A program made the position numbers and the translations under genes. The notes beneath the pieces are model-generated. The model did not search any database, was not told where the DNA came from, and saw only the letters and a list, made by a program, of their open reading frames with translations. Of a stretch of DNA of 64,000 nucleotides, positions 11,807 through 54,899 are shown piece by piece. The stretch's first letter is position 1; the number at the start of each line of letters is the position of its first letter. This DNA is from Pseudanabaena sp. lw0831 (GTDB lineage Bacteria > Cyanobacteriota > Cyanobacteriia > Pseudanabaenales > Pseudanabaenaceae). Location of the stretch: positions 1-64,000 of the forward strand of contig NZ_BBJB01000085.1 in NCBI RefSeq assembly GCF_016584665.1. Direction: 5' to 3'.

Positions 11807-12016
11807 ATAGATTCTGGCTCTTAAGCTACATACCAGATTTTACCCGATTTATGTAGAAAAGATTACTTTATATAACTTTTTGATAACTTTTTTTGCTCCA
11901 AATTCTTTTGACTGAACTCTTTCAGAAATATATCTAAATAATCCTTAATAATCCTTAACAATTCTCAGTAACAAAAAAAACTAGCACTGAATGCTAAGTC
12001 CTTTTTTTTTTTTGAT

Positions 12017-12088
12017 GGGCGCTGACGGGCTCGAACCGCCGACATTCTCGGTGTAAACGAGACGCTCTACCAACTGAGCTAAGCGCCC
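12017..12088 (-). tRNA. tRNA-Val, anticodon UAC
   Basis: On the minus strand the 72 bases fold into a standard cloverleaf. The acceptor stem is GGGCGCT/AGCGCCC, the D arm GCTC...GAGC, the anticodon stem TCTCG/CGAGA with loop TTTACAC (anticodon TAC), and the T arm GGCGG/CCGTC with loop TTCGAGC. The 3' CCA is not encoded. A long T run (on the + strand, just left) lies next to the 3' end. Confidence 0.95.
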
Positions 12089-44265: not shown

Positions 44266-44351
44266 GTCTAACGGCTAAGTTGAGCGGCGACTAGTATCCT
44301 CTGCATCCCCACCGAGATCTCCTGTTCGTCCGCTCCAACGTGTTGTTATGC
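44266..44351 (+). other. attC-like site (integron cassette recombination site)
   Basis: The four boxes of an attC are recognisable in order: GTCTAAC (RYYYAAC type) at 44266, TTGAGCGG at 44280, its near complement CCGCTCCAA at 44330 with one unpaired extra base, and GTTATGC at 44345 (one change from GTTRRRY). The 86-base length fits. Orientation would place the nuclease-fold gene in the cassette ending here. No integrase gene is in the window. Confidence 0.45.
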
Positions 44352-44470
44352 CGCCGTCGCACTCACTATTTTTAGCAAACCTACCTTGGAATGTAAAGAA
44401 TTATTTCATTCCCGATCATGGCTTAGGGCTGTGTAATACTCGCTTTTATAGTCGTTTGGTATCAGCATTT

Positions 44471-44821
44471 ATGGAGTCTAAGTTTGAACGTACAGAGATT
44501 GTTCGAGTTAAGCTCCCTAACGGCAAGGAAGTGAAAATTGAAGCTAGGTTTCTTGGTGGTGAGGAGAATGTTTCAGCTAAAAAGATACTATTGCTTGATG
44601 ATATGACTGATGTGCTTGATGGAGTTGCCCTAGCAATAGCCGATTCACTGCAAAAAGTTCAGCCCACGAAAGCCACTGTCAAACTAGGCTTAGAAGTAGC
44701 AGTAGAATCCGGACAGCTGACAACACTAATCGTAAAGGGATCGGGGAAAGCCAATTTGGAAGTCACCTTGGAGTGGCAGAAGCGAGATATGCCAACTCCT
44801 AAGCAAATTCCACCAGCCTAA
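44471..44821 (+). CDS. Trypco1-domain protein (CU044_2847 family)
   Basis: A 116-residue protein, taken from ATG 44471 because the domain begins at once with ERTEIVRVKLPNGKEVKIEA and the upstream extension overlaps the attC-like site. The C-terminal block KATVKLGLEVAVESGQLTTL followed by ANLEVTLEW is the hallmark of the trypsin-co-occurring domain Trypco1. These proteins are encoded beside trypsin-like proteases in conflict systems and are thought to be their regulators or substrates. Here the protease gene starts 50 bases downstream on the same strand, fitting that pairing exactly. Confidence 0.85.
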   Translation: MESKFERTEIVRVKLPNGKEVKIEARFLGGEENVSAKKILLLDDMTDVLDGVALAIADSLQKVQPTKATVKLGLEVAVESGQLTTLIVKGSGKANLEVTLEWQKRDMPTPKQIPPA

Positions 44822-44871
44822 GTACTAATGGGTGCTCATATAATTCTTGAGTTTGACAGGATCTGAGTATA

Positions 44872-47800
44872 ATGAATCAACAGTTGTTGGAATTGCTACA
44901 TCAATGCACCGTTCGTTTGAGTACTCCACAAGAAGATGGAACTGGATTCTTCGTGGCACCTGGGACTATTCTTACTTGTGCTCATGTAGTTGAGACAAGA
45001 AGAGATGAACCAATTAGCATCTATTGGCAAGGGCAGAATTATACAGCTACAGCGGTTGAGGGGTTGCCAGAAGATACCAAACTACTTGATCTAGCTCTTT
45101 TAAGACTGACTACCGAGGTTTTCAACCATCCCTGCGTTTATCTTGATGAAGTTATTTATCTTAATGACGCATTGTACAGCTATGGCTACACGGACGATTA
45201 TCCTAATGGAGATCCAGCCACCTTTGAATTTGAGGGCAACACAGGAGATCAACCTCCCCTACTTAAATTTAAAGAAGGTCAAGTTCGTCCTGGGCTAAGT
45301 GGTTCTCCTTTGCTGAATCAGCGCACTGGTATGGTGTGTGGAGTTGTTAAAAAGACCCGTGATCGCAACACCGATCTGGGCGGGAGAGGAGTACCAATAT
45401 CTGCTGCCATTGCCCAATGGACTCATCTCGTAGAATTACAGCAAGAGTTCCACCAAAAAGATACACGCTGGAAAAACTTTTTATTAGAATTGAAATACCA
45501 AGGCATTCCTGAGAATATTCCCGAAAGTGGTGTTGTAGAGTTTGTTGGACGCGAAAAAGCCCTTTTTGATCTGCATCAACTTCTAGAGGAACACAATCAG
45601 GTAGCAATTAAAGCTGCTATTACAGGCATGGGTGGCGTAGGTAAAACTGAGCTTGCGATCCAGTATGCTCGGTGTCATTTACAAACCTATCAGGGTGGGG
45701 TTTGCTGGTTACAGGCACGTAATGAAGAGGATGTGGGGATTCAAATAGTAAACTTTGCCAAAGGGCTATTGAAGCTCAATCCTCGTGAAGATATAGATCT
45801 AATTAATCAAGTGCGGTTCTGTTGGCAAGAGTGGCTAGATGGAGAAGTATTGGTTGTTTTAGATGATGTCGTTGACTATCAGCAAATTCAGCCTTTTTTA
45901 CCTTCACACAAGCGGTTCAAAGTTCTAATCACTACAAGAAAACAATTGCAACCACCTATTGCTCTATTAGCCTTGGAACTTCTATCAGAGGAAGCATCTC
46001 TAGATTTATTGATTTCTCTAGTAGGGGAGACACGGATTCAAGAACAACTAGATGATGCCAAAAGGCTTTGTAGGTGGCTAGGCTACTTACCTTTGGGGTT
46101 GGAGCTAGTAGGGCGCTATTTGCTAAGAAATTCAGCTTTATCTTTAGCGAAAATTTTGTCTCGCCTAGAGAAAAAGCGGCTCAAACACCCAGCTTTCGAT
46201 AGCTCAAAAAAGATGACAGCCCAGATGACAGCCAAATTGGGCGTGACAGTCGCTTTTGATTTGACTTGGGAAGACTTGGACGAACAGGCACAGCAATTAG
46301 GCTGTCTATTGAGCTTGTTTGCCCTAGCCCCTATCCCTTGGTCACTAGTGGAGGATGTTGTAAAAATATCTGATTGGGAAATTGATCCAGATGATCTCAC
46401 GGAAGAGAGTAGAGACACTCTGGTGCTTTGGAATCTATTGCAGCATGTTGGCGAGGAAACTTACAAACTACATGAATTAATTCGGGATTTCTTTCGAGAA
46501 AAGTTAGAAGACCTTACTCAGGCTAGCAACTTTAAGCAATCTATTGCTAATTCAATGGCAACCTTAGCAAGGCATATTCCCGATACACCCAGTCGTCAGA
46601 TTACTCAATCAATAACCATAACAATTCCTCACCTAACTGAAATTACTGAGTCAATAGATTATACTCAGTTCGACGATACATTATATTGGCTTTTCGTTGG
46701 CTTAGCAAGGTTCTATAATGGTCAGGGCTTTTACACCCTTGTAGAAAAATGGTGTGAGCAAGGCTTATCTATTATTAGAAAACGGTTTAATACAGATAAG
46801 ATCACAAATACTGACTCAACTCTTAAGGAGGTAATCGCCGCTTTATGGCTGTTTCAAGGCAAGGCTTTACGAGTTAAAGGAGAATATAGTTTTGCTTTGG
46901 AAAAATATCAGCAGAGTATTAAAATACTACAAGATGGTCAAGAAAAAACGATGGTTGTGCGTGCTTTACGTGGGCAAGGTCACGTCTATCGCTTGCAAGG
47001 GAAGCATGAGGATTCTATACGCAGTTATGAGGAATCAAGAGGGCTAGCTGAAGTTATTAAATTTGACAAAGGAGTAGCAAGAGCGGCGTATGGTGTTGCT
47101 CGAATCTACCGATTGCGGGGAGAATTAGAGAAAGCTGCCTTACGCTATGAAGAAGCCAGAGTAGCCTTTGAAAAACTTGATCTACCTGTTGAAGAAGCTT
47201 GGGCGACGTTTGGGCTAGGAGAAGTACAACGAATGCGATGGATTCTCCAACAATCTTATGAGATGTACTCAGCTGCACTACAGCAATTCAAGGAGTTAGG
47301 ACATAGGGAAGGAGAGGCGTATGCTGCATGGGGAACTGGAGATACAAATAGACTACTAGGAGGAATTGAAGCAGAAAAGAGAAATCTTGAGACTGCATTA
47401 AAGTATCTTGAAACTGCCAAAAAAGACTACGAGCTATCCTTAGAAATTTGCCAGCAAATAGGTGACAGACGAAGCGAGGCATGGGCTGTACTTGGATTGG
47501 CAGAAGTTTCTAGGATGGAGGGTAAATATGAAGTTTCTGCTTCAGAAAAAGCGATTTCTAAATACCATGATGCACTGTCAAAGTACCAACATGTATTCTC
47601 TCTAGTTAGTTATCAAGAATGTGTAGAGGAAGCCCATGCACTCTTGGGAATTGCTGCTACTAAGCGGTTATTGAGCTTGCAGGGAATAATAAGTGATTCA
47701 GGCATGGAAATCAATGAAGCATGTGAGAAAGCAATTAATATTTACCAAGATCAAAACCGCAATATGAACTACTGTATCGTTGATGCTCTAATAGAGAGAG

Positions 47801-47964
47801 GTCTATACCACCTCATCCAATTAAATTGGGAACAAGCTCAGCTTGATTTGGAGCAAGCTGAAAAAATTTGCATCAATAATAATTACACTGAAGAAAAAGA
47901 TCTAATCAATAGAATAAAAAACCAAAAAGACAGCAGTGAGTTACATATTCTAAATTTCCCATGA
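44872..47964 (+). CDS. Trypsin-like protease / NB-ARC STAND ATPase / TPR protein
   Basis: A 1030-residue signal-transduction ATPase with a protease effector. Residues 1-195 are a trypsin-like domain with full triad: His38 in LTCAHVV, Asp73 in LLDLALL and Ser143 in GLSGSP. Residues about 220-480 are NB-ARC, with Walker A GMGGVGKT (252-259), Walker B VLVVLDDV (326-333), ITTR (353-356) and the GxP motif in LGYLPLGLEL. A winged-helix-like stretch follows, then a long TPR array (about 640-1000; for example ALRGQGHVYRLQGKHEDSI). By analogy with plant R-proteins, the repeats sense a trigger, the ATPase oligomerises and the protease is switched on. The Trypco1 gene upstream is the expected partner. 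Confidence 0.92.
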   Translation: MNQQLLELLHQCTVRLSTPQEDGTGFFVAPGTILTCAHVVETRRDEPISIYWQGQNYTATAVEGLPEDTKLLDLALLRLTTEVFNHPCVYLDEVIYLNDALYSYGYTDDYPNGDPATFEFEGNTGDQPPLLKFKEGQVRPGLSGSPLLNQRTGMVCGVVKKTRDRNTDLGGRGVPISAAIAQWTHLVELQQEFHQKDTRWKNFLLELKYQGIPENIPESGVVEFVGREKALFDLHQLLEEHNQVAIKAAITGMGGVGKTELAIQYARCHLQTYQGGVCWLQARNEEDVGIQIVNFAKGLLKLNPREDIDLINQVRFCWQEWLDGEVLVVLDDVVDYQQIQPFLPSHKRFKVLITTRKQLQPPIALLALELLSEEASLDLLISLVGETRIQEQLDDAKRLCRWLGYLPLGLELVGRYLLRNSALSLAKILSRLEKKRLKHPAFDSSKKMTAQMTAKLGVTVAFDLTWEDLDEQAQQLGCLLSLFALAPIPWSLVEDVVKISDWEIDPDDLTEESRDTLVLWNLLQHVGEETYKLHELIRDFFREKLEDLTQASNFKQSIANSMATLARHIPDTPSRQITQSITITIPHLTEITESIDYTQFDDTLYWLFVGLARFYNGQGFYTLVEKWCEQGLSIIRKRFNTDKITNTDSTLKEVIAALWLFQGKALRVKGEYSFALEKYQQSIKILQDGQEKTMVVRALRGQGHVYRLQGKHEDSIRSYEESRGLAEVIKFDKGVARAAYGVARIYRLRGELEKAALRYEEARVAFEKLDLPVEEAWATFGLGEVQRMRWILQQSYEMYSAALQQFKELGHREGEAYAAWGTGDTNRLLGGIEAEKRNLETALKYLETAKKDYELSLEICQQIGDRRSEAWAVLGLAEVSRMEGKYEVSASEKAISKYHDALSKYQHVFSLVSYQECVEEAHALLGIAATKRLLSLQGIISDSGMEINEACEKAINIYQDQNRNMNYCIVDALIERGLYHLIQLNWEQAQLDLEQAEKICINNNYTEEKDLINRIKNQKDSSELHILNFP

Positions 47965-47982: not shown

Positions 47983-49071
47983 TTAGATAGAAATTGCAAG
48001 TATTTCTTCTCTCAGGACTCTTATAAATTCGTGATTCTCTTCAGGTGTACCAACGGATACCCTGAGACAGAATTCATCTAATCCAGGTTTCATTCCAAAG
48101 TCTTGTACAAAAATATTTCTCTTTCTAAGAGCAGAAACTAAACTTTCTGAGGTAATTCCTAAGGGTTTAGTACTCAAAAATAAGAAGTTTGTAGCAGATG
48201 GATAAACACTAAATCCAAGAGTTGTTAGTTCATGAGCTAAACTTGTACGCTCTTGACAAATTTTTACAATATTTGAGTAGGCATATGACTTATCTTCTAA
48301 CGCCGCGATCGCTCCTGCTAATGCTAACTTGTTTACTGGAAACAACTGAGCACATCTGTACAAATAGTCTGAAATCTCCTCATTTGTAATTGCGTATCCT
48401 ACTCTAAGCCCTGCCAATCCAAAGCTCTTGGAAAGGCTTCTCAGAATAATGAGATTAGGATATTTCTCAATAAGATCTATTGCTGTTTCTTTGCAAAATT
48501 CATAGTAACACTCGTCAATAACCACAATACAATTTAAATGATTAAGAGCTGACAAAATTACATCTCGTGGAATTAGATTAGCGGTTGGATTATTAGGATT
48601 AGCAATAAATAAAACTTTAGTATTCACCGTAACTTTTTGTAGTAAAGCTTGAACATCTAAACCAAAATCGGCAGTTCTACTAATAAAAACTGGATTACCA
48701 CCCATCATCTGAGTAGCGTGCCAATAAACAAAAAAGGTTGGGACAGGTAATAAAACTTCTTCCCCAGGCTTAACAAAAATCTTGATAATTAGCTCAATCA
48801 AATCATCAGATCCATTTCCAATAACAATTTGCTCTTTTCTGACTCCCGTATAATGAGCCAATGATTCTCTTAGAGTCCCGCCAAGCACATCTGGATATCG
48901 GTTAATAGTACTGATAGCATCAGCGATCGCCTTAGTCACATGAGCAGAAGGGGGATATGGCAGTTCACCTTTATCTAAACGAATTGAGTTATTTCCCTTA
49001 ATTGCTCCAAGCTCTTTGGGACTAAGGGTTCTAATGTACTCATTGATTAGGTGATCGATTGGATTACTCAA
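47983..49071 (-). CDS. HisC-like PLP aminotransferase
   Basis: A fold-type I aminotransferase of the histidinol-phosphate aminotransferase family, about 362 residues. The PLP Lys is in RSLSKSFGLAGLRVGY. Other family motifs are YPDVLGGTLRESLA, VIGNGSDDLIELI, ANPNNPTAN and the C-terminal LRVSVGTPEEN. I take TTG 49071, which follows GGGGGTTTAAGTAC and the stop of the preceding gene by four bases. GTG 49110 would overlap that gene by 35 bases. It is the last gene of a five-gene operon with HAD, APH-kinase and HisD-like genes, so its substrate is probably not histidinol phosphate of primary metabolism. Confidence 0.88.
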   Translation of the reverse strand: MSNPIDHLINEYIRTLSPKELGAIKGNNSIRLDKGELPYPPSAHVTKAIADAISTINRYPDVLGGTLRESLAHYTGVRKEQIVIGNGSDDLIELIIKIFVKPGEEVLLPVPTFFVYWHATQMMGGNPVFISRTADFGLDVQALLQKVTVNTKVLFIANPNNPTANLIPRDVILSALNHLNCIVVIDECYYEFCKETAIDLIEKYPNLIILRSLSKSFGLAGLRVGYAITNEEISDYLYRCAQLFPVNKLALAGAIAALEDKSYAYSNIVKICQERTSLAHELTTLGFSVYPSATNFLFLSTKPLGITSESLVSALRKRNIFVQDFGMKPGLDEFCLRVSVGTPEENHEFIRVLREEILAISI

Positions 49072-49075
49072 GTAC

Positions 49076-50206
49076 TTAAACCCCCAACAAATTTGGTAAA
49101 TCAAGCACACTGCTCAAAATAACATTACAACCGCTATCTACTAACATCTTTTGTTGACTAGCGATCACCCTTCCATCTACACAACCTGTCAGTACCCCTA
49201 TTGATATACAATTAGAGCGTTTAGCCGCAACCACATCACTTGCAGCATCTCCAATATAGGCAACATAGCTACGATCAAGACTTTGAAATTCCTCGGTATA
49301 TAAGACTCGGACATCTTCATCAGGGTGAATTGCTTTAAGCAATACAAATGGATGAGGCTTGGCTAAAAGAACATGTTTGCTCAACTGTGAAGCTAATTCC
49401 TCAGCTTGCAGAACTTCGTCATATGTCGCAATCCGCGACTTCTCGAAGTAGTCCAACAGTCCTAACGCTAACATAGGATTAATCACTTCTGAGCGAGGTC
49501 TACCAGTTGCAATACCCAAGCTATACTTTCTCGACTCACACAATTTACTAAACATTTGCTTAAGCCCTGACAGGGTAACCACAGTGTCGTCATCAGGTAA
49601 GGAATAATCCCGTTTTCCTTCATACCATTCTTGAAAGTTGTGATAGCATAGCTTCCACAATTCTCCTTTAGGCTTCAGGTAATGCATGTCTGTGTTTAAA
49701 ATCGCTTTGGAAAATGGGTGGAGATATTCAACTACCGCAGTCCCAGTCAAAGATTCTGTTTCTTGCCAAAACCGCCCTATCAAAACATCACTATCCTTAA
49801 AGTTATAGGCTTGGTTGCTTAAAAGCCCTTTCAACTGTATCAATTGTTGCTCAATGGAAAGAGAATTGGTGTTGAGAAACGTGCTCCAAAATTCTGGTTG
49901 ATTCTCCTTCAGGCTGTGCAAAATACTAATCAAGTGTAAGGATAAAACAAAAAAAGTAAGATCCCAATTAGAATTCACCGCACGCTTTTTCAACTCATAG
50001 ATAAAATCACTAGAAATTACGTTTTTTCCCAGTAGAGCTAACTGATCTAAAAAGCTATCGCCTTCATCAAAATAGTTGTTCAATCCGATATAACTGTCAC
50101 TAGACAGTATTTCCCAAACAGTTAATCGGGCAGTATTCCAATACTTGTTTTCACTTGTTATTACACCATCCATATCAAAGATTAGTGTTGTGATATTCTC
50201 ATACAT
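49076..50206 (-). CDS. HAD-superfamily phosphatase
   Basis: A 376-residue haloacid dehalogenase-fold hydrolase. Motif I is FDMDGVIT with nucleophile Asp11 and acid Asp13. Motif II is GIATGRPRSE, the motif III Lys is in LLAKPHP, and motif IV is YIGDAASDVVAAK. A large helical cap of about 190 residues (30-220) lies between motifs I and II, far bigger than in phosphoglycolate phosphatases, which suggests a specialised substrate. The gene overlaps nothing and lies six bases after the kinase gene. In the operon it could remove the phosphate from an amino alcohol phosphate made by the HisC-like enzyme. Confidence 0.88.
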   Translation of the reverse strand: MYENITTLIFDMDGVITSENKYWNTARLTVWEILSSDSYIGLNNYFDEGDSFLDQLALLGKNVISSDFIYELKKRAVNSNWDLTFFVLSLHLISILHSLKENQPEFWSTFLNTNSLSIEQQLIQLKGLLSNQAYNFKDSDVLIGRFWQETESLTGTAVVEYLHPFSKAILNTDMHYLKPKGELWKLCYHNFQEWYEGKRDYSLPDDDTVVTLSGLKQMFSKLCESRKYSLGIATGRPRSEVINPMLALGLLDYFEKSRIATYDEVLQAEELASQLSKHVLLAKPHPFVLLKAIHPDEDVRVLYTEEFQSLDRSYVAYIGDAASDVVAAKRSNCISIGVLTGCVDGRVIASQQKMLVDSGCNVILSSVLDLPNLLGV

Positions 50207-50211
50207 ATAAA

Positions 50212-51456
50212 TTACAGATATTGTTTAGTGTAAGCAGCTAAATTTAATTCAGAATCAATAAAGCTTTTATTATTTTCCGGACTGGTACTTCCCATTTCTA
50301 TAGACATCGCTAAACCTAAAAGCGTAATTTCAGGTGGAAAAATTTCTGGGTCTATCAAATTTCTTGTTAAGAAAGGACAACAAAATAATGCAAGCTTTAA
50401 ATATTTTCTCCAATTACTCAACGACAAACCTCGAACATCCAATTCACCCAACAAGGGAGTAAGAACTCTTTGGAGTTTAGAGCGCAAAAATTCTACTCTG
50501 ACTGCTGAAGGAGTAAAATTATGATCTAAAATAACCTTGTCTTCTTGAATATCTAGCTTGATTAATAAAGTACTTACGATCTCTTGTGGGTAATACATCC
50601 AAGCAGCAAAAACATTATGAAAAAGAGGTTTGGCCAAGTCTAGAAAAGGTGAATGGCGACCTGCAAACGCTGGATCAAAGTAAATGAGTGACTGATTCAC
50701 CTGATCGATAAATATATTTCCGTTGTGGGCATCACCATGTCCAATGATTGTTGGGATATCTATCTTACCTGGCTCTAAGACCGTGATCGCCTGTTGCACC
50801 AAGTCACTAATGGAGTCATCAAACTTCACTCCATTAATAACCCACTTCAATTTGCATAACTGCTCAAATTTAATTTTATGTCCAGGCAGATAAATTTCTT
50901 TGTCTGTATAGAAGTTAGTAAATCTTCCTGCCGTCAGCCGATGAGAAAAAAGTTGGTGAATAGGTGCATCTTTGTCTTCACTTGCAGGAGAATAGCGTAA
51001 TGTTTTTAGGTAAATATTTAAAAGTTCATCATCTGCCTTTTTTTGAATTGAAATTAAAGAATTGATATCATTTGTCTCACCTAGCTCCATCTTACGAACA
51101 ATATCAAACAACGAAGGATCATCGATATATTCATAGATCAATAACTGCTTTCCCCACTCCGTCGAACTGTATATGGGTTGGATGACTGGATAACCGGACT
51201 CGGCTAAGATCCCAGAATTATAGTATTCGCTGATGATACTTTTAGGTTCAACATGTGTTTTAAAGAAAAGGCGCTGCCCACTCTCCGTGTTTAAAAAGCC
51301 GTTAAGTGAATTTAAGGAAACAGCAAGTGGACGAATTTGTATTCCAGTCACCTTAAAGGGTAAGTTAGCATTCAAAAACTTTTTTAGCAGATCATTAGCA
51401 ATCTGAATATTAGTGAACTGAAGCTCTTGAATTTTCTGCAACTCTTTATCAGACAT
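50212..51456 (-). CDS. APH-family small-molecule phosphotransferase
   Basis: A 414-residue kinase-fold enzyme of the aminoglycoside/choline/homoserine kinase group. The catalytic loop is GHGDAHNGNIFID (HGDxHxxN motif, with catalytic Asp), and the metal-binding segment is YFDPAFAGRHSPFLDLAK. The N-lobe is degenerate but contains LLIYEYIDDPSLF as the hinge. Such enzymes phosphorylate hydroxyl groups of small amino or sugar compounds. With a phosphatase gene next to it, the operon may install and later remove a phosphate, or the kinase may act on the final product. No resistance determinant is evident. Confidence 0.82.
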   Translation of the reverse strand: MSDKELQKIQELQFTNIQIANDLLKKFLNANLPFKVTGIQIRPLAVSLNSLNGFLNTESGQRLFFKTHVEPKSIISEYYNSGILAESGYPVIQPIYSSTEWGKQLLIYEYIDDPSLFDIVRKMELGETNDINSLISIQKKADDELLNIYLKTLRYSPASEDKDAPIHQLFSHRLTAGRFTNFYTDKEIYLPGHKIKFEQLCKLKWVINGVKFDDSISDLVQQAITVLEPGKIDIPTIIGHGDAHNGNIFIDQVNQSLIYFDPAFAGRHSPFLDLAKPLFHNVFAAWMYYPQEIVSTLLIKLDIQEDKVILDHNFTPSAVRVEFLRSKLQRVLTPLLGELDVRGLSLSNWRKYLKLALFCCPFLTRNLIDPEIFPPEITLLGLAMSIEMGSTSPENNKSFIDSELNLAAYTKQYL

Positions 51457-51518
51457 CTTTTCACTGAAGTTACTAAAGGGATAATTAACAGAATTCTAGC
51501 ATTTTTTATATGAGCAAC

Positions 51519-52010
51519 TCACTCCAAAGTGCCTGTATTAATTAGTATGCTTTTTAAGCATCTATAGGCTAACTGCATGTTGTCCCAAGCCAGTTCGTAC
51601 TTCTTCTGATTCCAATATGCATCAGCCACGTTTTTATACCCCTCTTCTGCCTTAAGAAAAAGATCGGTTGCTAGGGATATGGACTGTGCTTTTTGGGCAA
51701 CAATGGCAGCGCTGATCAAAGCAGCACTATATGCCTCCTTATTTCCTTCGTGCTCATAAATGCTAGCGGCTCCTTTGTAAGCTTCCACTACTTCCTGATA
51801 AAAATCAACGTTGTCTTGTAATCCTACACCAATTTTCATTAAGGCAGCAATAGTAAGATTTAGCCGGCCAACACTTTGGTAAAGTACAGCGGCTGCTTGA
51901 CATAGATGAATAACATCTCCAGCATTTCCCTGGTCAGCTAGTAATTCGTCGGCTTTTCTTAGTAAAATTTCAGCGGTTAATTCGGTCATTTCAACAGTTA
52001 ATTCCATCAT
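51519..52010 (-). CDS. TPR-like all-helical protein
   Basis: A 163-residue helical protein with about three TPR-like helix pairs: GDVIHLCQAAAVLYQSVGR, YQEVVEAYKGAASIYEHEG and LFLKAEEGYKNVADAYWNQK. It has no catalytic motif. Being inside the operon (17 bases after the HisD-like gene and 62 before the kinase gene), it may scaffold the enzymes or hold a carrier. The family name is not certain; tetratricopeptide resemblance rests on the spacing of Ala, Tyr and Leu residues. Confidence 0.7.
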   Translation of the reverse strand: MMELTVEMTELTAEILLRKADELLADQGNAGDVIHLCQAAAVLYQSVGRLNLTIAALMKIGVGLQDNVDFYQEVVEAYKGAASIYEHEGNKEAYSAALISAAIVAQKAQSISLATDLFLKAEEGYKNVADAYWNQKKYELAWDNMQLAYRCLKSILINTGTLE

Positions 52011-52026
52011 AAAGAAAATATATCGG

Positions 52027-53337
52027 TTACTTCAACAAAGTATCTCGTTCTATGATTGACATCGCATGAGCAGGGAATCCTTCATAGTTTGCTAGGATTT
52101 GAGTTGTTTTCTTTAGTTTCTCAAAGCCCTCCTTGGTAAGATATCCAATTCCTGAACGCTTAAGGAAATCGAAAACGGATACGGCTGAATAAGAACGAGC
52201 AAATCCACCTGTTGGTAGAATTGCATTTACTCCTAAACAATAATTACTTACGGGAATTGGTGTGTAAGCACCCAATAAAATCTCGCCAGCGTTTTTTATC
52301 TTTCCTAAAATACTAAAAGGATCATTGACTAGGATCTCTAAATGCTCTGGAGCATATTCATTAACGAAATTGATAGATTCTTCCAAGCTCGAAGTCAACA
52401 GGATTCCCCCGTAGGACGATAAACTCTTTTCGCAAAATTCTCGCCTCCACTCTGGGAGTTTCTGAACGTATTTAGACACAAAATCCGCCGCTTTCAAAGC
52501 GACCGACTCATCATGAGTTACAAGCAATGCGGCGGACTCAGGGCCATGTTCAGCTTCAACTAGCAAGTCAAGAGCCGCCAGTTCAGGATCAGTATGTTCA
52601 TCAGCAAGAATGATAGACTCACTAGGTCCAGCTGGTAATCCTACATCAACCGTTCCAAACAAAACTCTTTTAGCTGCGGATCCATAAACATTACAAGGAC
52701 CAGTAATCTTATCAATCTTTTGGATAGATTCTGTGCCCAAAGCCATTGCTGCAATAGCTTGAATACCACCTAGTTTATAGATGTCTTTTATACCTGCCAT
52801 TTGCGCAGCCACTAGAGATGCAGGTTCAACCTTGCCGTCCTTACCAGGAGGAGTACACACAATCACTTTACTAACTCCAGCCACCTTAGCTGGGATTGTG
52901 AGCATCAGCATCACCGACGGGAAAGATCCCTTGCCTCTTGGAACATAGAGTCCCGCACTTGCTATAGGAGAAACCTTTTCACCTGCAAATACCCCACTCT
53001 CAATCTCTGCGAGATGGATTTCATTAGGCATCTGTCGTTGATGAACTTCTCGAATATTTACAAATGCATGGTGGATTGCATCCCTGAGCTCAGGTTCAAT
53101 TGAGATACTTGCCTCTTCAAATTCTTGGTCACTAACTTTCAAGCTTCCAATTTCTGCATCTGAGTAATCAAACTTCCTGACATACTCGATAAGAGCCGAA
53201 TCCCCACGGAGCTTAATTTGATCAATAACTTCTCTTGCTAGGGAGAGCGCACCCTCAATATTCAACTCTGCCCGTCTTTTGAGTAAGGACATCTCTTCCG
53301 AACTCATTTCTGCTAGCCGTAGAATTCTAGTTTCCAT
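52027..53337 (-). CDS. Histidinol dehydrogenase paralogue with changed active site
   Basis: A 436-residue HisD-fold dehydrogenase. Most family motifs are present (GLYVPRGKGSFPS, KIDKITGPCNVY, GLPAGPSESIILAD, YAPEHLEI). The catalytic Glu331-His332 pair and zinc ligands His264 and His424 are kept. Compared with E. coli HisD, zinc ligand Asp360 is Asn365, Gln259 is Glu261, and substrate His367 is Ala372 (segment VSNYCLGVNAILPTGG). It is therefore unlikely to be the housekeeping hisD. It heads an operon with HisC-like, HAD and APH genes, so it probably oxidises a different amino alcohol in two steps to the acid. Confidence 0.9.
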   Translation of the reverse strand: METRILRLAEMSSEEMSLLKRRAELNIEGALSLAREVIDQIKLRGDSALIEYVRKFDYSDAEIGSLKVSDQEFEEASISIEPELRDAIHHAFVNIREVHQRQMPNEIHLAEIESGVFAGEKVSPIASAGLYVPRGKGSFPSVMLMLTIPAKVAGVSKVIVCTPPGKDGKVEPASLVAAQMAGIKDIYKLGGIQAIAAMALGTESIQKIDKITGPCNVYGSAAKRVLFGTVDVGLPAGPSESIILADEHTDPELAALDLLVEAEHGPESAALLVTHDESVALKAADFVSKYVQKLPEWRREFCEKSLSSYGGILLTSSLEESINFVNEYAPEHLEILVNDPFSILGKIKNAGEILLGAYTPIPVSNYCLGVNAILPTGGFARSYSAVSVFDFLKRSGIGYLTKEGFEKLKKTTQILANYEGFPAHAMSIIERDTLLK

Positions 53338-54004: not shown

Positions 54005-54899
54005 TTACAGATGCAGACTAATTTCCTGTGAATTAATGAGCAACTGCAAAGACTCTCCATAAACAATATCGGCAATAGGCATAGCGATCACCTCTAGCAC
54101 CGATGGATTTTGGAAATGGCGCAGCTTCGTTTCAGGATGTGGGTAATACACCCAACCATCATAGCGATTGCCCTTATAAAGAACTTGGCAGGAAACAAAG
54201 GAAAAATCTTCAGGTGGATGCTTAGTTGTCCAATCTACTTGTCGAAAAGTGTAATGGGGCTTCTGGATCGTGTAAGTGTAAGGTGAGATATCAATATTTA
54301 AAGTGCCTCGAAAATAGGGCGATAGGTCTAACCCTAGATTTTGGAAGAAGGGAATTTGCATCGAGATTGAACCTTCAGCATAGGGACTGTCCTCTGAAAG
54401 CCCCGAAGCAACCCGATGCCCTTGAATCAGTTTGCCGTCTACAACACATAAACTCAGAGCATCCCTCACAACTTGCCTTGTGCGATCGCCGATCCCCTCA
54501 GCAACTGACTCCCGATTACCCGCCACATTTAGCACCTTGACTTGCTGCTCAATTAGCCAATCATGCAAGGTGAGAGCATCGGGATTGATGAGATAAGGCT
54601 TTTGATATTTGATGCAAGACTCAATGGTTAGCTTTGTACCATCGCTATGAAGGCGATCGGCAAAAATAACCGTCGCATCAGCAGCTTGGACATTTTGGAC
54701 AGTGCGAACTTCATAATCTACGCGATCGGATTCCTGTAAGCCAAACTTGGCAAGCTCTAAATTTTCACCTGACTCAGTACGGTAGCCTTTCGGAGCAAAG
54801 CCCACCCGTAGCAATGCCCAAGTCCGCTGCCGCCAGCAAACCACCCCAATCTGCACCAGTTTGTCCACCTGAAATGATTAACGTTACGGGCTTGTTCAT
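54005..54899 (-). pseudogene. Molybdenum-carrier-like (LOG/YspA-fold) protein with C-terminal RibK-like domain, frameshifted
   Basis: From ATG 54899 the first frame reads NKPVTLIISGGQTGADWGG, then LLAAADLGIATGG, the classic nucleotide-binding start of putative molybdenum carrier proteins. One extra base in the GCCCACCC run near 54800-54807 breaks the frame. The continuation FAPKGYRTESGENLELAKFGL and DATVIFADRLHSDGT is in the next frame to 54005. After about residue 150 comes a second domain with GHRVASGLSEDSPYAEG and FRGTLNIDISPYTY. These resemble the GTLN motif of archaeal CTP-dependent riboflavin kinases. The domain match is tentative. Frameshift or base-calling error cannot be told apart. 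Confidence 0.65.

Follow-up and report, generated by a model that had tools for sequence, protein, structure and literature searches.

The pathway to histidine is commonly described as a single, unvarying route and has long been taught as identical throughout life; an operon of the cyanobacterium Pseudanabaena sp. lw0831 raises the question of whether its last steps can be carried out in a second way. The operon occupies positions 47983 to 53337, on the minus strand, of the 64,000-nucleotide stretch of contig NZ_BBJB01000085.1 that we analysed (the window), and it encodes proteins resembling HisD and HisC together with an APH-fold kinase, a HAD phosphatase and a small helical protein; none of its products matches the HisB domain (PF00475). 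An initial annotation, made from the DNA alone, had read it as a parallel to the end of histidine biosynthesis. That parallel holds. Relatives of the operon lie inside histidine (his) operons or beside HisG, and the set very probably takes over the role of HisB in making histidine. As to how it does so, we consider it probable that the operon encodes a different, HisB-independent way of completing histidine, apparently taken up as a set from a Chloroflexota-like source, in which the HAD phosphatase, the HisD-like protein (hereafter the variant HisD), the kinase and the HisC-like aminotransferase would act in that order. The five genes are as follows.

52027..53337, minus strand: variant HisD, 436 aa, a variant histidinol-dehydrogenase fold with E259, I356, N360 and A367
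51519..52010, minus strand: small TPR/SNAP-like helical protein, 163 aa (from the open reading frame list and a family match)
50212..51456, minus strand: APH-fold kinase, 414 aa, with K66, HGDAHNGN and D261 kept
49076..50206, minus strand: HAD phosphatase with a large cap, 376 aa (PF13419)
47983..49071, minus strand: HisC-like pyridoxal phosphate-dependent aminotransferase (TIGR01141), with a TTG start; the reading-frame caller had placed a GTG start at 49110

Read 5' to 3' on the minus strand (53337 to 47983), the order is variant HisD, TPR-like protein, kinase, HAD phosphatase and HisC-like protein, with intergenic gaps of 16, 62 and 5 nt followed by an apparent 35-nt overlap between the last two genes. 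This overlap arises because the caller used an unlikely GTG start at 49110; the HisC-like gene probably starts instead at the TTG at 49071, which lies 4 nt past the HAD stop codon and gives a product similar in length to a 356-aa relative in locus L015, described below. The coordinates and order bear out the tightly spaced, single-strand operon of the initial annotation.

For the window organism these genes are additional, because canonical hisB, hisD and hisC are present elsewhere in the genome, including the normal hisD and hisC that the initial annotation had asked for. The canonical hisD is on the same contig (C85:139738-140937), the single hisB, with canonical active-site residues, is on contig C55, and the canonical hisC, which scores above its equivalog cut-off, is on contig C29; there is one HisG. 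A candidate second HisC (L006) was rejected as CobD.

Relatives of the operon and the displacement of HisB

When 84,980 species genomes were scanned with an alignment of the HAD protein, 18 loci came up. Three weak ones (L030 to L032) were left out of the relatives, and one of these, L030, has an archaeal HisD and HisB of the canonical kind. At L016, in a Chloroflexi genome, the variant HisD, the kinase and the HAD protein occur together, and the kinase is present in 26 of 350 genomes of that phylum (Chloroflexota). We fetched the surroundings of the kinase for 24 of the 26 positives, that is, without G570, in which the kinase is split over two contigs, and G292, which was looked at separately. 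In 22 of the 24 contexts the HAD protein and the kinase form a single fused protein (the unfused contexts are L110 and L132), and all 24 fetched stretches contain at least one of HisS, HisG, HisH, HisA, HisF and HisI, the typical order being HisS-HisG-[HAD-kinase]-HisH-HisA-HisF-HisI. None of the 24 stretches contains a HisB match: the HAD-kinase fusion occupies the place of HisB in the his operon. The kinase is thus part of the pathway, as first supposed. The G292 stretch (L061) gave matches to HisD, kinase and HAD and to no other his gene.

The displacement extends to whole genomes. HisB (PF00475) was found in none of the 26 Chloroflexota genomes that have the kinase; of 54 that lack it, picked by hand at roughly even steps from 324, 41 have HisB (Fisher p 1e-11, a value that ignores relatedness). 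Assembly gaps do not explain the absence in G366, G446 and G577, because in each the kinase-bearing contig has roughly the length of the complete genome. Plain auxotrophy does not explain it either, because kinase-positive genomes keep HisD (25 of 26, with none detected in G510) while most of the checked kinase-negative genomes without HisB do not (absent in seven of nine checked, of 13 in all). These figures bear directly on the explanation that the operon is a redundant, ordinary terminal histidine module acquired by horizontal transfer, with the kinase a passenger and the loss of HisB a sign of auxotrophy. HisD and HisC scores above the equivalog cut-offs would fit such a module, as would the 13 of 54 kinase-negative genomes that lack HisB too, but it does not account for a kinase fused to the HAD protein among his genes or for the retention of HisD alongside it, and we regard it as very improbable.

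The kinase is likewise tied to a particular form of HisD. All 25 kinase-positive Chloroflexota genomes that have a HisD encode one with E259, N360 and A367 (E. coli numbering), versus none of 23 kinase-negative genomes, of which 22 have Q259, D360 and H367 and one (G625) has E259, S360 and A367. The G625 sequence (L210, contig C107) is a HisD-like stretch inside a 1028-aa frame in a genome that has HisB, and is perhaps a third type of HisD.

Among cyanobacteria, the Oscillatoriaceae cyanobacterium M7585 (G291, locus L015) carries the variant HisD, kinase, HAD and HisC-like genes in the window order, with 79, 62, 52 and 63% identity, respectively, and a HisS-like gene and HisG directly after HisC. 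Of the five-gene order that the initial annotation wanted sought in other cyanobacteria, four genes thus recur here; for the fifth, the TPR-like gene, 46 related loci gave no match at E 1e-6. The HisG of this operon is the only one in G291, which also has HisA and HisF, and HisB was not found in this metagenome assembly of unstated completeness. The other HisD of G291 (L041, G291:C33:30232-31443) is an open frame 65% identical to the canonical HisD of the window genome and carries the changes H262K, E326Q, H327N, E356Q, H367Y and H419R; it may be a dying gene or a pseudoenzyme. Judged from these sequences, the classical branch of G291 looks dead and its variant HisD intact. The window genome holds both branches. 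The neighbours of L015 had also suggested a natural-product cluster with a resistant histidyl-tRNA synthetase and a feedback-resistant HisG. This was rejected: the genome has no other HisG, and a HisS-HisG pair recurs beside the HAD-kinase fusion in many Chloroflexota his operons.

Within a first sample of 291 cyanobacteria the window genome alone had the kinase and HAD protein, and the one other genome of its genus there (G280) had neither; in a second sample, of 388 genomes from the order to which G291 belongs, 19 had the kinase, G291 itself being part of the sample. The cyanobacterial distribution is patchy and sample-dependent. HisD was found at 11 of these 19 loci, HAD at 13 and a close HisC at 11, with some contigs ending early, and HAD-HisC fusions occur at four loci in three cyanobacterial genomes. 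In one cyanobacterial operon a gene for a Uma2-type putative endonuclease lies between those for the kinase and the HAD protein (L234:10574-11134).

Two further settings of the variant HisD were found. At 13 loci of Monoglobus and other Clostridia, and in the plasmid record L014, it accompanies a HisB-like protein and a HAD protein. This Clostridial HisB has lost H55, R99, K177 and the S199/K201 loop, which in HisB hold the phosphate of imidazoleglycerol phosphate (IGP; PMC4509728), and keeps both catalytic Glu residues (14 of 14 loci); it has also lost the metal ligands H142 and H213, in the numbering used in PMC10978614. Canonical HisB rows keep H55, R99, K177 and K201 in 13 of 13 cases, and H213 varies among them too. 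The altered HisB would suit a substrate whose phosphate is replaced, for example by a carboxylate. In six Clostridial genomes it is the only HisB and the variant HisD the only HisD, and a Candidatus Roslinia stretch with the variant HisD also encodes a fused HisZ-HisG, HisA and HisIE. At L014 (9014-9544) and L018 (11175-11708) the HisD-HisB-HAD genes are followed by one for an iron-sulfur hydro-lyase beta subunit (FumA C-terminus/TtdB type), and the L014 stretch has no annotated alpha subunit.

The second setting comprises plasmid operons of Sinorhizobium (S. meliloti), Shinella, Pacificitalea, Klebsiella and Pantoea, in which the variant HisD and the kinase lie beside an ABC importer with no annotated HAD protein. 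Three of the five stretches have an annotated histidinol-phosphate transaminase and four an alpha-hydroxy-acid oxidase, and the Sinorhizobium operon encodes the histidine-utilisation regulator HutC (TIGR02018, 259.5 over 220). Since the pair occurs beside an importer without an annotated phosphatase, and with HutC in one case, the variant HisD and the kinase look as if they catalyse adjacent steps on an imidazole compound that bears no phosphate. The classical his genes of S. meliloti are treated in PMC5929573.

Besides the Chloroflexota, the signature of the variant HisD is found in 10 cyanobacterial and nine further Clostridial sequences and in the five plasmid operons. A maximum-likelihood tree places all variant HisD sequences, with the long-branched G625, in one clade (100/99; 87/65 without G625), although the program flags long branches, including the one where plasmid and Clostridial sequences meet. 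The cyanobacterial sequences group with those of Chloroflexota G538 and L016 (98/93), and this nesting suggests that the operon was transferred into cyanobacteria, apparently as a set from a Chloroflexota-like source.

The variant HisD and its partner enzymes

The variant HisD scores 489.5 bits against PF00815 (threshold 27) and 474.1 against TIGR00069 (cut-off 243.8). Its zinc ligands were mapped from PMC5585171 onto the E. coli numbering, with an offset of 40 to 41 residues that is our own mapping. Aligned with E. coli HisD, it keeps S237, H262, E326, H327, E414 and H419 and carries Q259E, D360N and H367A, all as first noted, and in addition E356I. The zinc-ligand set Gln259/His262/Asp360/His419 is thus incomplete, with E259 and N360 beside the retained H262 and H419, and the catalytic pair Glu326-His327, which the initial annotation had also reported as kept, is present both in the window protein and in the variant HisD rows of the alignment. 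In the structure of Medicago HisD described in PMC5585171, Glu455 (the equivalent of E414) binds the imidazole ring, and the equivalents of Q259 and E356 contact each other. Because E414 is kept while these two touching residues, D360 and H367 are changed, the protein appears to have retained the imidazole contact and rewired the amino and zinc side. Its substrate is probably altered, as was originally proposed.

Does the altered substrate lead away from histidine? The initial annotation had opted for a non-imidazole substrate and for an unusual amino acid or small conjugate as the product, in which case the likeness to histidine synthesis would reflect ancestry only. The canonical hisB, hisD and hisC elsewhere in the window genome and the changed substrate-side residues agree with this. 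However, relatives of the variant HisD are the sole HisD in genomes with HisG, HisA and HisF and are sited among his genes, HisB is displaced among the relatives, HutC accompanies the Sinorhizobium operon and the imidazole-contacting Glu414 is kept. The context of the relatives points to an imidazole substrate and to histidine as the product, and we consider a non-histidine product distinctly improbable.

APH kinases share a catalytic Lys, the motif HGDxxxxN and an Asp. The operon kinase falls below the PF01636 gathering score (21.3 versus 23.2 bits), yet K66, H240, D242, N247 and D261 are invariant over 15 rows and its AlphaFold model (predicted local distance difference test, pLDDT, 88.6) has the APH fold with an intact active site. 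The structural matches of the model include PsiK (Z 20.9), 5-methylthioribose kinase (17.8) and LxmK, the kinase of the lexapeptide dehydratase (17.9), which is one of several nearly tied kinases; the match to LxmK shows only that a dehydrating use of the APH fold exists.

HAD phosphatases have a DxD motif, a Thr, a Lys and the acidic residues of motif IV, and all are present in the operon protein (D11, D13, T234, K283, D320 and D324, invariant over 15 rows). It scores 45 bits against PF13419 (threshold 23.8) and under the cut-off of every NCBIfam family matched. Its unusually large cap, already remarked on in the initial annotation, is real: among the 50 PDB matches listed for its AlphaFold model (pLDDT 87.5), the best and only size-matched one is 1qyi (380 aa, Q8NW41, with no function stated in the record title), with a template-modelling score of 0.71 and 25% identity over an alignment covering most of its length. 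1qyi shares the large-cap HAD fold, and its function may be related to that of the operon protein. The HisC-like protein scores 329 against TIGR01141 (cut-off 276.55).

Order of the steps

Computation shows which genes occur together, that HisB is displaced, what marks the variant HisD, which fusions exist and how the Clostridial HisB is altered; the substrates, the order of steps and the elimination chemistry proposed here are inferred. First, the HAD protein would act as an imidazoleglycerol-phosphate phosphatase, converting IGP to imidazoleglycerol. Second, the variant HisD, for which L-histidinol and imidazoleglycerol come into question as substrates, is proposed to be an imidazoleglycerol dehydrogenase that oxidises the primary alcohol twice with NAD+ to give imidazolyl-glycerate; on the zinc, the C2 hydroxyl would sit where histidinol has its amino group. 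Third, the kinase would spend ATP on phosphorylating the ring-adjacent hydroxyl, and loss of this phosphate would give enol/keto imidazolepyruvate, replacing the dehydration by HisB; in Clostridia the altered HisB would act here instead of the kinase. Fourth, the HisC-like protein is proposed to transaminate imidazolepyruvate to L-histidine. Neither histidinol nor histidinol phosphate would be an intermediate. HisB empties the carbinol next to the imidazole through a diazafulvene (PMC4509728), and because the same carbinol is concerned, a phosphate placed on it should leave easily.

The alternative is an ATP-driven version of the classical order, in which the kinase would phosphorylate the C3 hydroxyl of IGP and elimination of that phosphate would yield imidazole-acetol phosphate, a direct substitute for the HisB reaction, HisC would aminate this product, the HAD protein would be the histidinol-phosphate phosphatase and the variant HisD a divergent but ordinary histidinol dehydrogenase. 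The loss of HisB speaks for this order as well, the window genome being the sole one with HisB among 28 kinase-positive genomes searched, and by annotation the HAD-kinase fusion resembles the phosphatase-dehydratase fusion of E. coli HisB. Its order also makes the steps joined in the HAD-HisC fusions consecutive, and it readily accommodates a HisC-like protein that passes the HisC cut-off. What it leaves unexplained is the strict tie between the variant HisD and the kinase, the import operons that have both with no annotated HAD protein, and the loss of the phosphate site in the Clostridial HisB that accompanies the variant HisD. We therefore regard the classical order as unlikely. The histidinol-free order is favoured by the association of the variant HisD with the kinase, for which the classical order has no need, and by the plasmid pairs, the altered HisB and the precedent of HpsN discussed below; we lean towards it somewhat more than not. 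Instead of aminating, dephosphorylating and then oxidising, as the initial annotation had it, the enzymes probably dephosphorylate, oxidise, dehydrate and then aminate.

Several observations weigh against this proposal. The window genome retains the canonical genes; by score its HisC-like protein looks like a normal HisC; and a fusion of HAD with HisC would unite two steps that follow each other in the classical route. The HAD protein is not matched at six of the 19 cyanobacterial kinase loci or in the kinase stretch of G538 (L110), the Chloroflexota aminotransferase was not located, and no Clostridial locus has the kinase beside the variant HisD. Many of the Chloroflexota positives are closely related, so that their counts are not independent events, and the APH-fold structural matches have no predictive value for the substrate of the kinase.

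Neighbouring genes, known systems and significance

Convergent with the operon, at 44348-47964, lie a gene for a CU044_2847-family protein (NF041216, 56.9 bits over 23) and, after it, one for a 1030-aa trypsin-like/NB-ARC/TPR protein, which together look like a STAND-type conflict or defence pair. Upstream of the operon and on the same strand, residues 22-136 of an open reading frame at 54005-54868 match the circularly permuted YpsA SLOG family (PF12694). At Rfam gathering thresholds no RNA regulator was found near the operon, and the whole window has a single tRNA (12016-12088).

The proposed route shares with the classical HisB-HisC-HisN-HisD branch its start at IGP, its inferred end in histidine, enzymes of the HisD and HisC folds and a phosphatase; it differs in that the operon has an APH-fold kinase and no HisB, in the swapped zinc-side residues of HisD and, probably, in the absence of histidinol. 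Precedent for the second step comes from HpsN, the (R)-2,3-dihydroxypropanesulfonate 3-dehydrogenase, which has the HisD fold and turns a diol into a hydroxy acid while a hydroxyl occupies the amino group's place on the zinc (PMC11382572); the variant HisD would similarly use NAD+ to convert the end of a vicinal diol into a 2-hydroxy acid. As described in that paper, HpsN keeps Gln and Asp on the zinc and has a G-R-Y-A/S-H motif with an axial His126, whereas the variant HisD has E259 and N360, G-K-G-S-F at the motif site and the imidazole-contacting Glu414; identity with HpsN-type sulfopropanediol dehydrogenases was rejected on the motif. Like E. coli HisB, the Chloroflexota fusion joins a phosphatase to the enzyme of the dehydration step at the same position of the his operon, but a kinase of another fold replaces the dehydratase domain and the HAD cap is large, of the 1qyi type. 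The kinase also resembles that of the lexapeptide LxmK/LxmY system, an APH-fold kinase of a dehydratase complex according to its PDB title. LxmK activates a hydroxyl for elimination, on a peptide substrate and with a partner protein; the operon kinase, in contrast, would act on a small molecule, and no separate lyase was found.

Among the matches listed in a search of the open PMC literature (5.39 million papers), with preprints outside its scope, none describes a HisB-free histidine pathway. HisB is reported to be missing in Hormoscilla, where an undiscovered replacement dehydratase was named as one possibility (PMC6520454, 2019). The passages concerned with histidine gaps in PMC7311316 list three at HisN, one at HisC and two spurious ones, with none at HisB, and a 2022 reconstruction from gut genomes gives, in the portion that treats histidine, one complete route with HisB included (PMC9026213).

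The operon most likely encodes an undescribed way of finishing histidine, with a kinase-driven step in the stead of HisB, and it offers a concrete and testable candidate for the question of a replacement dehydratase. The histidine pathway appears to have a second version. On a slight balance of probability, this second terminal route, from IGP through imidazoleglycerol, imidazolyl-glycerate and imidazolepyruvate to histidine, is standard in a group of Chloroflexota and has spread to cyanobacteria, and rhizobia use its middle pair of enzymes for an imported imidazole diol. If so, predictions of histidine auxotrophy would be corrected for Chloroflexota and some cyanobacteria, and a kinase would be found acting as a small-molecule dehydratase. 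The use of HisB as a herbicide target would also be affected, because an organism whose sole branch is this one should be able to do without HisB.

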